A stretch of DNA of 64,000 bases, taken from the NCBI RefSeq assembly GCF_003932855.1, contig NZ_RQYZ01000001.1, positions 186,001 through 250,000 on the forward strand, read 5' to 3'. Made by a program: the position numbers and the translations under genes. The stretch is from Tessaracoccus sp. OH4464_COT-324. Its GTDB lineage: Bacteria > Actinomycetota > Actinomycetes > Propionibacteriales > Propionibacteriaceae. Shown one piece after another: positions 12,109 to 33,833 of this stretch (positions are counted from its first letter, which is position 1; the number at the start of each line of letters is the position of its first letter). The notes beneath the pieces are model-generated. The model had not been told where the DNA came from. It made no database searches and was given only the letters and a program-made list of their open reading frames with translations.

Positions 12109-12147
12109 CCACTCAGCCTAGCGCGCTGTGGGGAGGCGAGTACCCGG

Positions 12148-13944
12148 TCAATGGCTTGTGACCTCGACGGGCCAGCCGAGCCAACGCGATACCATCTGGA
12201 TCCTGGCTTCCACCTGTTCGCTGGTGGCCTTGGCCAGCGGCGGGCCGCCGCACTGGCGGCGGAGGTCGGCGTGCACATGGCTGTGGGGGACGCTTTGGAG
12301 CCGCGCATACTGGCTGACCAGCGAGTTCAGTTTCTTGCGTCGGTCTGCCATGGCTTGGTGCAGGGCGACCTCAGGCTTACGTCGGTTGAGTTTTTCCCGC
12401 CTGGCGATTTGACGCCGCTGGCGCTCGGCCAGGAGAACGCCCACTTGCTCCGCGTCCAGCAACCCCGGCAACCCCAGGTATTCCTGTTCATCGGCCGAAG
12501 CCGGATCTGCGAACATGCCGTAGGCCTGGGAATTGTACAGCACGTGGTCGAAAGTAGCGGCGGAATCCATCGCCTGGAACGTGCCCAGCAGATCGTCGGA
12601 AGCCGCGTCGGCACGATTCGCTGCCTCCAGTTCGGCCTCGGACTCCGCCCAAACCTCGTCGGCCACCTTTCGTCGGCCCAGGACGTGATCGCGGGCCTGC
12701 TCAAGCGACGAGGCATGATTCAAAATGATGGGCACGGTGGGCAGGAAAACGGTGGCCAGCTCGCCGCGCCGGCGGGAGCGCACGAATCGCCCCACGGCTT
12801 GGGCGAAAAACAGCGGAGTCTGAGTGGCGGTGGCGTAAACGCCGACCGCGAGGCGCGGAACATCCACACCCTCCGAGACCATGCGGACCGCCACCATCCA
12901 GCGCTCCTGGGAAGAGGAGAAGTTGGCGATGCGTTGCGACGAGCGGGCCTCGTCCGACAACACCAGGGTCGGTTTGCTGCCGGTGATGCTCTCCAGAACC
13001 CGGGCGTATGCACGCGCACTCGTCTGGTTGGAAGCGATGACGAGTCCGCCTGCGTCGGGGATGTGTCGCCGGGTCTCGCTCAGTCGCCTGTCGGCTGCCC
13101 CAAGCACGGCGGTGATCCACTCGCCTTTGGGGTCGAGCGCTGTACGCCAGGCATGGCTAGTCAGATCCTTGGTGAGCAACTCGCCGAGGTTGGCCGAAAG
13201 CTCCTCGCCGGACTTCGTCCGCCAGCGCATAGGTCCGCCGTAATTCATGAAGACCACGGGCCGGACGACGTGGTCGCGTAGCGCGTTCGCGTAGCCGTAG
13301 GTATAGTCAGCGCGGCTGACCCGGGTGCCGTCGGGGAGTTCGTCGTAGGCCACGAACGGGATCGGGTTCTCGTCCGAGCGAAACGGCGTGCCCGTCAGCA
13401 TCAGCCGTCGCCTGGCGTAGCCGAAGGCCTCCCGCAGGGCGTCTCCCCAGCTCAGCGAGTCGCCCGCGTGGTGCACCTCGTCCAGGATCACCAGCGCGTC
13501 CGAGGAACAGCAGATGTTCTCGTATGCCCACGGCCGCATGGCGACGCCGGCGTAGGTCAGTGTGGAGCCGACGAACTCACGCGATCGGCCGCGCCTGGCG
13601 GTGTTGCCGGGATCCAAATGGATGCCGACTCGGCTGGCCGCGTCCGCCCACTGGACTTTCAGATGCTCGGTGGGAGCCACGACGATGATGCGGTTGATCT
13701 CGCGCCGTTCCAGCAGGTCTCGGGCCACTCGAAGCGCAAACGTTGTTTTGCCCGCGCCGGGGGTGGCAACGGCCAAGAAATCGCGGGGCGCGTTGCGGTG
13801 GTACAGATTCAGCGCGTCCTGCTGCCATTTTCTCAGGCTCTGCGCAGTACCCCAGGCGGCGCGCTGGGGAAATGCGGGGGAGAGATGCTCGAAAGCAGCG
13901 GAAGGCACGAGGTGAAACTCTACCGCGCCAGCTGTCGGGGGCAA
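12148..13944 (-). CDS. superfamily 2 DEAD/DEAH-box helicase
   Basis: SF2 helicase-type ATPase, 598 residues, of a family widespread in actinobacteria. Motifs in order: Q-like region LRKWQQDALNLY, Walker A TPGAGKTTFA, DEVH box ILDEVHHAGD, motif III LTGTPFRSDE, motif V EGVDVPRLAVGVYAT, motif VI QAVGRFVRSRRRGE. The C-terminal 200 residues are charged and lack a recognised domain. The start is TTG at 13944, with an in-frame GTG about 13 codons further in as an alternative. Substrate and role are unknown; it is not an obvious Rad25/XPB or RecG. Confidence 0.88.
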   Translation of the reverse strand: MPPTAGAVEFHLVPSAAFEHLSPAFPQRAAWGTAQSLRKWQQDALNLYHRNAPRDFLAVATPGAGKTTFALRVARDLLERREINRIIVVAPTEHLKVQWADAASRVGIHLDPGNTARRGRSREFVGSTLTYAGVAMRPWAYENICCSSDALVILDEVHHAGDSLSWGDALREAFGYARRRLMLTGTPFRSDENPIPFVAYDELPDGTRVSRADYTYGYANALRDHVVRPVVFMNYGGPMRWRTKSGEELSANLGELLTKDLTSHAWRTALDPKGEWITAVLGAADRRLSETRRHIPDAGGLVIASNQTSARAYARVLESITGSKPTLVLSDEARSSQRIANFSSSQERWMVAVRMVSEGVDVPRLAVGVYATATQTPLFFAQAVGRFVRSRRRGELATVFLPTVPIILNHASSLEQARDHVLGRRKVADEVWAESEAELEAANRADAASDDLLGTFQAMDSAATFDHVLYNSQAYGMFADPASADEQEYLGLPGLLDAEQVGVLLAERQRRQIARREKLNRRKPEVALHQAMADRRKKLNSLVSQYARLQSVPHSHVHADLRRQCGGPPLAKATSEQVEARIQMVSRWLGWPVEVTSH

Positions 13945-13976
13945 GGTCGGCGCGCACGAGACCGTAAGATGTTCGA

Positions 13977-14795
13977 ATGTTCATCCCAGTCAACCGCCTG
14001 GAAGATCCGCGGCTCCGCCAATTCGCGCAGTTGCGCGACTCGCAACTGCGGTCAAGGTTTGAGCAGGAGCGCGGTATTTTCGTCGCGGAGGGGGAGAAGA
14101 TCATTCAGCGCGCCCTGGCGCGGGGTATCCAGCCGACGGCCTTCTTACTGACCGAGCGCTGGTTGGCAAGCCTCAAGGCCCTGATCCCGGGGGACGTGCC
14201 CTGCTTTGTGGCGGATGAGGCGTTGATCGAGCGCATCAGCGGGTTTCACGTGCACCGCGGCGCGTTGGCCACGTTCGTTCGGCCGGAGGAAGCCAGTTGG
14301 GAGATGCTGGCGAGCCAGGATCGGCTCTTGGTGTGCGAGGGCCTGGTGGACCACGCGAACGTGGGCTCGATCATGCGGATTGCCGCAGCCCTGGGCTGGG
14401 GAGGGGTGGTGGTGAGCAAGGCTTCGGCCGACCCCCTGTATCGGCGCGCAGTGAAAACGTCGATGGGCGCGGCCCTACAAGTGCCCTGGCGGCGCATGTC
14501 CGATGACCTGGCCGACCTCGAGCGGCTGAGCCGCGCAGGGTTCACGCTGCTCGCGGCCACGCCGGCGAAGAACGCGGTTGCGCTCGACGACGTTCAGATC
14601 TCCGGGAAGGTGGCCGTTCTGCTGGGCAACGAGGGACACGGGCTGCCGTCCAGCTGGTGCGGGATGGCCCACCAGCGGGTGGTCATTCCGATGGCCGGGG
14701 GTGTCGACTCCCTGAACGTCGCTGCGGCCGCAGCGATCCTCGCCTACGAACTGCGCAGCAGCTTGCGCATTTCCAGCTTGTCGACCGTCGGGTAG
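13977..14795 (+). CDS. TrmH/SpoU-family RNA 2'-O-methyltransferase
   Basis: SPOUT methyltransferase (TrmH family), transferring methyl from S-adenosylmethionine to a ribose 2'-OH of tRNA or rRNA. The N-terminal substrate-binding region contains GIFVAEGEKIIQRAL. SPOUT motif 1 is VDHANVGSIMRIA; motif 2 is LLGNEGHGLP; motif 3 is PMAGGVDSLNVAAAAAIL. 272 residues. The ATG at 13977 is only 33 bases from the divergent helicase start. The 3' end overlaps the convergent GNAT gene by 52 bases. Target base not determinable. Confidence 0.92.
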   Translation: MFIPVNRLEDPRLRQFAQLRDSQLRSRFEQERGIFVAEGEKIIQRALARGIQPTAFLLTERWLASLKALIPGDVPCFVADEALIERISGFHVHRGALATFVRPEEASWEMLASQDRLLVCEGLVDHANVGSIMRIAAALGWGGVVVSKASADPLYRRAVKTSMGAALQVPWRRMSDDLADLERLSRAGFTLLAATPAKNAVALDDVQISGKVAVLLGNEGHGLPSSWCGMAHQRVVIPMAGGVDSLNVAAAAAILAYELRSSLRISSLSTVG

Positions 14796-32754: not shown

Positions 32755-32757
32755 GTG

Positions 32758-33351
32758 ATGAGCACTGACACCGAGTTCCGATCAGAGGCCGCAGCCTTTG
32801 AGGAGGAAGCCTTGGCGCTGGTCGATTCGTTGTACGGCGCAGCGCTGGGTATGACGCGTAACCCCGCGGACGCGGAAGACCTGGTGCAGGAGGCCTACGC
32901 CAAGGCATTCGCGGCTCGGGGCTCGTTCCAGCCGGGCACTAACCTCAAGGCGTGGCTTTACCGCATCCTGACCAACACCTACATCTCTCAGTACCGCAAG
33001 GCTCAACGCCTGCCGAAACTCTCCGGGGGCGACGAGGTGGAGGACTGGCAGCTCGCGCGGAACGAGGCGCACGATGCTCGGGGGCTCCGCTCCGCTGAGA
33101 TGGAAGCTCTGGAAAGGATCCCGGATTCCGCGGTGGTAGATGCCCTGGCAGGACTGGGAGAGCAGTATCGGTTGGCGGTTTGGCTGAACGATGTCGAGGG
33201 TTTTTCGTATAAGGAGATCGCGGAGATCATGGGCACCCCGATCGGAACTGTGATGAGCCGCATCAATCGAGGACGCAAGCAGTTACGCCACGCGCTCAGC
33301 GGGTACGCCATCGAGCGTGGTTTCATGCGGGATGAGGCGAGCAATGGCTGA
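32758..33351 (+). CDS. sigH: ECF sigma factor SigH/SigR
   Basis: Extracytoplasmic-function sigma factor of the SigR/SigH group (thiol and heat stress). Region 2 shows [17 protein letters not shown] and [19 protein letters not shown]; region 4 shows [15 protein letters not shown] then [15 protein letters not shown]. 197 residues. GTG at 32755 is followed by ATG at 32758; either is possible. The stop overlaps the start of the zinc anti-sigma gene by 8 bases, so both are made together. The setting next to pdtaS and whiB1 matches mycobacterial sigH. A GGAAT-type autoregulated promoter was not identified upstream. Confidence 0.94.
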
Positions 33352-33598
33352 TCATGTGCATGGGGTCAAGGATGAGTGCCTCACCGCGCTTGAGCGCGTG
33401 CACGAGTTCCTGAGCCACGAACTGCTCGACGCGGACGAGGATACCATCCGCGCTCACCTGGCGGCTTGTGAACACTGTATGGAGCAGTATGAGATCGAGT
33501 CGACCATCCAAGAGATGATCCGACGGGCCACGCGGGTGAGCGCGCCGGCATCGCTCTCGATCCGGATCCGGCGGTTGAGCGTGGAGATTAGGGGTTGA
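33344..33598 (+). CDS. rshA: zinc anti-sigma factor RshA/RsrA (mycothiol-system anti-sigma)
   Basis: Redox-sensing anti-sigma factor of 84 residues that holds SigH/SigR inactive until disulfide formation releases zinc. The ZAS motif is present: H38-x3-C42-x2-C45 (HLAACEHC), plus C12 in KDECLTAL, matching RsrA numbering shifted by one. The ATG at 33344 lies 8 bases inside sigH with GAGG about 6 bases upstream, and is preferred over an earlier in-frame start. Followed 5 bases after the stop by the first of three palindromic repeats. Confidence 0.92.
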
Positions 33599-33603
33599 TC
33601 AGT

Positions 33604-33753
33604 AGGGCCCCCGCGCGAGCGGGGGCCCTGCCCTGCGCCTCAGACCAAGGCCCGTAGGAGGCGTAGGACCCCCGCGCGAGCGGGGGCCCTACTATTGATT
33701 CGCCCGTGTCTCGTGTCGGGGTCAAAGGACCCCCGCGCGAGCGGGGGCCCTAC
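33604..33753. CRISPR. three 28-bp palindromic repeats, 61-bp period, two 33-bp spacers (CRISPR-like, type I-E geometry)
   Basis: Copies at 33604-33631, 33665-33692 and 33726-33753. The 28-base consensus is AGG(A/G) then CCCCCGCGCGAGCGGGGG then CCCT(A/G)C; copies 2 and 3 are identical, and copy 1 differs at 2 positions. The period is exactly 61 both times. The spacers (33632-33664 and 33693-33725, 33 bases each) are unrelated to each other. The inner CCCCGC-GCGA-GCGGGG hairpin has the layout of type I-E repeats (E. coli has CCCCGC-GCCA-GCGGGG). No cas gene is in the window. The alternative reading is three tandem hairpin terminators between the convergent rshA and bL37 genes: the stem is 11 bp with a GCGA tetraloop. 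Which is right is open. Confidence 0.55.
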
Positions 33754-33758
33754 ACGAA

Positions 33759-33833
33759 TCAGCTGTTGGGACGCTTGCCGTGGTTTGCGTTGTTCTTACG
33801 GCGAGCGCGCCGCTTGCGACCAGTCTTGCCCAT
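33759..33833 (-). CDS. 50S ribosomal protein bL37
   Basis: Tiny actinobacterial large-subunit protein, 24 residues: basic, starting MGKTGRKRRARR and ending NANHGKRPNS, which matches bL37 as I know it from mycobacteria (ending ANHGKRPNA). The ATG at 33833 has AAGGAG 7 bases upstream. It lies divergently from pdtaS with a 55-base gap, and its 3' end adjoins the third palindromic repeat. Too short for most gene finders. Confidence 0.88.
   Translation of the reverse strand: MGKTGRKRRARRKNNANHGKRPNS

Follow-up and report, generated by a model that had tools for sequence, protein, structure and literature searches.

The window analyzed here, a stretch of 64,000 nt from the genome of Tessaracoccus sp. 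OH4464_COT-324, contains a short array of three hairpins that is very probably a natural neo-CRISPR locus, created by off-target integration, twice, into a transcription terminator hairpin between the genes for an anti-sigma factor and ribosomal protein bL37.

Structure of the locus

The three hairpin copies occupy positions 33604-33631, 33665-33692, and 33726-33753 on the + strand (28 nt each) and are spaced by 61 bp in both intervals. Two spacers of 33 nt lie between them in the same orientation, at 33632-33664 and 33693-33725. Copies 2 and 3 are identical; their longest common stretch is exactly 28 nt, and identity ends there on both sides. Copy 1, whose 11-bp arms are perfect, differs from them at two positions. 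The spacers are unrelated to each other, with 8 identities in 33 positions and a local score that was equalled in 15% of shuffles. Arrays of type I-E consist of near-identical repeats of 28-29 nt and unrelated spacers of 32-33 nt, and this is the composition found here (three repeats, two spacers). Coordinates and sequence comparison thus bear out the initial annotation, which had described three hairpins at an exact 61-bp period with two unrelated 33-nt spacers. With short flanks included, fold energies of the hairpins were -21 to -32 kcal/mol, compared with -13.7 for the repeat of the resident type I-E array of this genome (see below). Two details count against a neo-CRISPR origin. The differences in copy 1 require a later mutation, and copies 1 and 2 have two extra left-hand bases (GT) in common, which a strict 28-nt unit accounts for by chance alone.

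Upstream of the array on the + strand lie a gene for a sigR-like ECF sigma factor (32755-33351, longest open reading frame; Pfam Sigma70_r2 and Sigma70_r4_2) and rsrA/rshA, encoding the anti-sigma-R factor (33344-33598; NCBIfam TIGR03988 antisig_RsrA with 55.4 bits, below the cut-off of 62.5), which ends 5 nt before copy 1. On the other side, the gene for bL37 (24 aa) is located on the - strand at 33759-33833 and was recognized by NCBIfam NF047428 ribo_Myco_bL37 (45.5 bits, cut-off 30); no Pfam family matched this reading frame. Copy 3 starts 5 nt beyond the bL37 stop codon, at the position where relatives have their hairpin.

The arrangement is rare within the window as well as in the genome. 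Pairs of exact direct repeats that are 16 nt or longer and no more than 400 bp apart occurred four times in the window, the three longest being the hairpin copies, and not once in 20 Markov shuffles of the window under the same criterion. The exact 16-nt core was found at three places in the 2.76-Mb genome, all of them at 33604-33753. A search for the hairpin with up to three mismatches over 24 nt yielded no genome site outside the locus and added copy 1 on the opposite strand. Single copies of the hairpin scattered over gene ends, which had been named as evidence against a CRISPR-like array, were thus absent from the genome, both as exact core and with up to three mismatches over 24 nt. Sites with a changed A-T pair and at most one further mismatch from the core were detected at three places elsewhere in the genome, each listed once.

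Pairs of the pattern CCCCNC-N4-GNGGGG at a distance of 61 bp numbered 203 on the forward strand of the genome, a total that equals the 201 such spacings of the resident array plus the two of this locus; the reversed control pattern gave no pair at 61 bp in the same genome. In a sample of 391 genomes of the order, two had a pair of CCCCCGC-N4-GCGGGGG at 61 bp, namely this one and G184. In the latter (L064), the DNA between the two CCCCCGC hairpins is an inverted repeat, i.e. a different structure. The exact 25-nt repeat had one record in the genome collection, which may omit records of the own genome, and this was a lone hairpin on a Planctomycetota contig; the exact 25-mer search found no array of it elsewhere in the collection. 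This contig, from a metagenome-assembled genome, carries at L043:6126-6150 a single 25-nt hairpin identical to that of copy 1, followed by TCTTCGTTTT. Judged by eye, it lies in the gap after a multiheme cytochrome-like gene and is apparently an independent terminator of the same sequence.

CRISPR systems of the same genome

The annotation had noted the lack of cas genes. This holds for the neighborhood of the locus but not for the genome, where a full type I-E operon and array were found on contig C69, outside the window. The genes cas3-cse1-cse2-cas7-cas5-cas6e-cas1e-cas2e, all recognized by profile models, are followed there by the array, so that the proposed search for cas3-cse genes returned a complete I-E set. 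Both cas1e (355.1 bits) and cas2e (54.6 bits) scored above their cut-offs, giving the cas1 plus cas2 pair of a type I-E system. Cas3 fell under the cut-off of PRK09694 and exceeded the thresholds of the HD and Cas3 core models; all seven remaining I-E Cas proteins were over their model cut-offs. In 40 kb of C69, the resident array comprises 217 repeats of GTGCTCCCCACGCGAGTGGGGATGATCC (28 nt), of whose 216 spacings 201 are 61 bp, 11 are 62 bp, and the other four are 63, 74, 116, and 431 bp. This very long array extends from L037:14674 to L039, with degenerate repeats at its far end.

A further system is located on contig C113 (L038:9970-11853 and 12131-14261), with an RT-Cas1 fusion of 627 aa, Cas10/Cmr-type genes nearby, and a 30-copy array of ~72-bp period. 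This RT-linked system is probably of type III-B. It was ruled out as the source of the array in the window, given its other repeat and a period of ~72 bp, not 61.

Repeat register

In + orientation, the unit of the window reads 5 nt, CCCC-GC-GCGA-GC-GGGG, and 7 nt, and the resident repeat reads 5 nt, CCCC-AC-GCGA-GT-GGGG, and 7 nt. Their cores agree at 14 of 16 positions in this orientation and at 12 or 10 in reverse orientation. Both differences fall within a single base pair, which has changed in a compensatory manner from A-T to G-C. The initial annotation was right in assigning a type I-E repeat layout: the 28-nt unit, the 61-bp period, and the register of the core are those of the resident repeat. 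For neo-CRISPR loci, a site resembling the native repeat and a duplication of repeat length are expected, and both were found. Agreement outside the core is poor (17 of 28 positions for the whole unit), and the flanks of the window repeat (AGGRC / GCCCTRC) extend the palindrome and are unlike those of I-E repeats.

The type I-E repeat of the relative G022, GTGCTCCCCGCGCGAGCGGGGATGATCC, matches the window core at 16 of 16 positions. Judging from these sequences, the native repeat may have fully matched the window core at the time of the event. In G022 (L063, G022:C15:1-1500), the I-E repeat differs from that of the window genome by one compensatory pair, and the leader ends of both genomes have CTAGTCA in common.

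The same site in relatives

The genus set consisted of 39 genomes, 38 besides this one; the incomplete G017 gave no bL37 match, leaving 37 relatives for comparison. By folding, a stem of at least seven pairs was found within 80 nt after bL37 in all 37. Pattern search for an element running from C4 to G4 detected one in 34 relatives, two in G001, and none in G037 and G016, whose stems after bL37 are present and built of other bases. A stricter search for exact stems in 30 relatives recovered the hairpin in 26 and not in G038, G032, G016, and G021, which fold with wobbles, mismatches, or long loops. In none of the 37 relatives was the hairpin repeated at 61 bp. As the hairpin follows bL37 in every relative, it probably predates the array.

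The remainder of the gap is more variable. A second, different inverted repeat was present between bL37 and rsrA in seven of 30 relatives. The longest exact direct repeats after bL37 had at most 11 nt in the relatives, except for G025 (L053), where a 40-nt exact direct repeat of different sequence occurs at 68 bp beyond the bL37 hairpin, belonging to a longer tandem duplication that is almost perfect. The second inverted repeats and this duplication indicate that the gap region is free to change in other respects.

From the bL37 stop to the rsrA coding motif, the distance is 274 here versus 152-203 in the 28 relatives measured. Subtraction of twice 61 leaves 152, so that with the two added units removed the distance falls within the range of the relatives. 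A neo-CRISPR locus is also expected to derive from a single-copy site without spacer, and such a site was found at the genus level in the 37 relatives, this species being represented by one genome. We infer from these comparisons that the array's repeat is the bL37/rsrA terminator hairpin, to which two repeat-spacer units would have been added in this lineage. The annotation's rival reading as a terminator is in a sense correct too: the repeat corresponds to the hairpin found between bL37 and rsrA in relatives, and the array was built upon that hairpin.

The cse1 gene was carried by 11 of the 37 relatives, each of them with one C4-to-G4 hairpin. Across the genus, hairpin pairs at 61 bp were detected in nine of 39 genomes including this one. 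These comprise (i) G012, G019, G026, and G036, with 85-133 pairs each and all carrying cse1; (ii) G004 and G006, whose pairs, among the matches listed, resemble I-E arrays; (iii) G022, with four pairs belonging to its I-E array; and (iv) G029, with one pair due to C/G low complexity.

Proposed origin by off-target integration

In the scenario that we favor, the shared rsrA/bL37 terminator hairpin would have acquired CCCCGCGCGAGCGGGG in this lineage, with arms and loop like those of an I-E repeat. The resident Cas1e-Cas2e integrase would have mistaken it for a repeat. A 33-nt prespacer would have been joined at one border of the 28-nt segment and then at the other, the second border being dictated by how far it lies from the inverted-repeat core, and gap repair would have duplicated the 28 nt. 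Running twice, the event would yield three hairpins and two spacers; each insertion creates another target, making a second event easy. The period supports I-E integration, as 61 is the sum of 28 and 33 and equals the resident I-E period. The integration chemistry, Cas1e-Cas2e as the agent, and the order of events are presumed from the end product. The integrase could plausibly be misled by a terminator hairpin that has the appropriate core and loop. The earlier suggestion that the array might be served by cas genes elsewhere is probably right as regards its making, given the complete type I-E system on C69.

Excerpts from published work describe related behavior of the enzymes. Off-array integration by Cas1-Cas2 in vitro was preferred near cruciform-forming inverted repeats (PMC9180970, citing Nunez 2015), and overexpressed Cas1-Cas2 integrated at non-array sites in vivo (PMC11788318, citing Nivala 2018). 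Elements of type I-E repeats act as rulers for the distance of integration (PMC6895254, citing Goren 2016). Sulfolobus Cas1 bound any single-stranded DNA that has a stem-loop, and a factor preventing integration elsewhere was proposed (PMC9456107). For integration, leader elements and, in type I-E, IHF are emphasized in the excerpts of PMC9456107 and PMC6895254.

Alternative explanations

A terminator might also have been tripled without CRISPR enzymes, by tandem duplication or slippage; selection would have maintained strong termination where the convergent genes meet, and the intervening DNA would have drifted. The hairpin in the same position as that of the relatives, its long and stable arms (-21 to -32 kcal/mol), and the tandem duplication known nearby (the 40-nt repeat of G025 at 68 bp) agree with such a course. 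Duplication would copy the flank too, yet the spacers share nothing, in contrast to the identical copies 2 and 3, and neither the distance of 61 bp twice nor the register of 5+16+7 is predicted. The one other CCCCCGC pair at 61 bp in the 391 genomes of the order has an inverted repeat in between. Taken together, we consider this course of events unlikely.

The core shared with the I-E repeat of G022 and the I-E layout would equally suit a true orphan array of type I-E, acquired or left over from an older I-E system, with repeats that diverged and came to serve in termination. Such an array is difficult to reconcile with a hairpin that all 37 relatives have here and that is probably the older of the two, with flanks (AGGRC / GCCCTRC) that lengthen the palindrome and match no I-E flank, or with the occurrence of the exact 25-nt repeat in one collection record, the lone Planctomycetota hairpin; we regard it as very unlikely. 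The solitary relic array considered in the annotation is not favored either: its flanks are not those of I-E repeats, and its hairpin occupies the same place as the hairpin of the relatives. Three insertions of a small mobile or REP-like element would also place near-identical hairpins in a row, but the genome holds no other copy at up to three mismatches, which makes this origin extremely improbable. Off-target integration into the terminator thus remains our preferred explanation.

Spacer origin

For spacer 1, weak matches alone were obtained against phage records (14 records with E of 1 or worse), and spacer 2 had no match there. Scans for exact 20-nt stretches found neither spacer in viral contigs. 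Allowing up to three mismatches, the spacers occurred in the genus genomes at the locus itself alone and in none of the 38 other genomes; spacer sequence conserved in relatives, the other observation named as speaking against an array, was thus not seen. A control comparison of 88 of the 217 resident repeats (the initial 5,335 bases of that array) with 50,697 phage records gave one hit, a weak one that lay in a pentapeptide-repeat gene (89% over 37 nt, E 0.01). Since even this control had a single weak phage hit, the lack of spacer matches says little. The putative foreign origin of the spacers is accordingly a weak point of the neo-CRISPR reading.

Leader, termination, and present function

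The 160 nt upstream of copy 1 contain no leader of the resident type; words of 7-8 nt at most are common to this stretch and the leaders of G022 and of the own array. The last triplet before the first repeat is AGT here and in G022, and ACT in the own leader. Comparison of the own leader with the DNA past copy 3 on the reverse strand gave one 10-nt word (E 0.036), which was taken as chance. That no leader was seen counts against efficient use by Cas1-Cas2.

In none of the three copies is the stem followed by the T-run expected of an intrinsic terminator (criterion: 5 T in 8), so that the terminator role rests on position, stem, and relatives. These features suggest that the hairpin ends transcription. 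Most likely, the locus still works as a terminator, now tripled, and does not provide useful immune memory, since the extended stem should hinder cleavage by Cas6e and the 5′ tag would differ from that of the resident array. The Cas6e cut site presumably lies inside the region covered by the longer stem of the window repeat. Although the + strand is both the direction of sigR-rsrA and the sense of the resident repeat, the locus is unlikely to yield crRNAs.

Significance and comparison with known systems

To our knowledge, most arguments on the origin of new CRISPR arrays draw on overexpression and in vitro experiments. Here, one natural genome offers the likely product, the likely agent (type I-E), and the native repeat, to be set beside 37 relatives with the unexpanded hairpin. 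The locus also gives a concrete target for what Cas1-Cas2 needs, which is a core inverted repeat and register and apparently neither leader nor flanks. For array finders it is a caution that a small 'orphan' array can turn out to be an altered terminator.

More speculatively, GC-rich terminators in hosts of type I-E systems might be standing birthplaces of CRISPR arrays, in which a core drifting to the repeat spacing becomes a self-sustaining second insertion site, with guides from read-through possible at this locus; we think this improbable. If it were true, the array would lie in crRNA sense behind sigR-rsrA, and read-through could yield guides. Terminators might even be the ancestors of those I-E repeats that have this core.

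The process of off-target integration is already known, and this locus is a new, well-resolved natural case. In the literature searched, which was covered in part, we found no natural two-spacer case with an unexpanded hairpin in relatives, and the excerpts of PMC7642515, PMC11687729, and PMC10011333 hold nothing decisive on earlier cases. Several known systems can be compared with the locus. The off-target sites in the work of Nivala, Shipman, and Church are said to resemble the native locus, and putative natural cases have reportedly been noted there in Yersinia pestis and Sulfolobus islandicus. As far as the excerpts go, the neo-CRISPR loci of that study (Nivala, Shipman, Church 2018) share with ours the new repeat-spacer units at an off-array chromosomal site, while the present locus is natural, lies at a transcription terminator, has two spacers, and corresponds to an unrepeated hairpin in relatives. 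In vitro integration, as excerpted in PMC9180970 (Nunez 2015), likewise targets an inverted repeat outside the array; here, in contrast, the proposed event would have taken place in vivo on the chromosome, with duplication of a segment of repeat length, and would have been repeated. With the resident array on C69, the locus has in common the 28-nt unit, 33-nt spacers, 61-bp period, GCGA loop, and 5+16+7 register, but it differs in its flanks, in a G-C instead of an A-T pair, in that no leader is seen, and in having three units and not 217. Finally, a GC-rich hairpin directly after bL37, as in the relatives, is what bacterial intrinsic terminators share with the locus, from which they differ in that here the T-run is missing and the hairpin is tripled at a fixed period.
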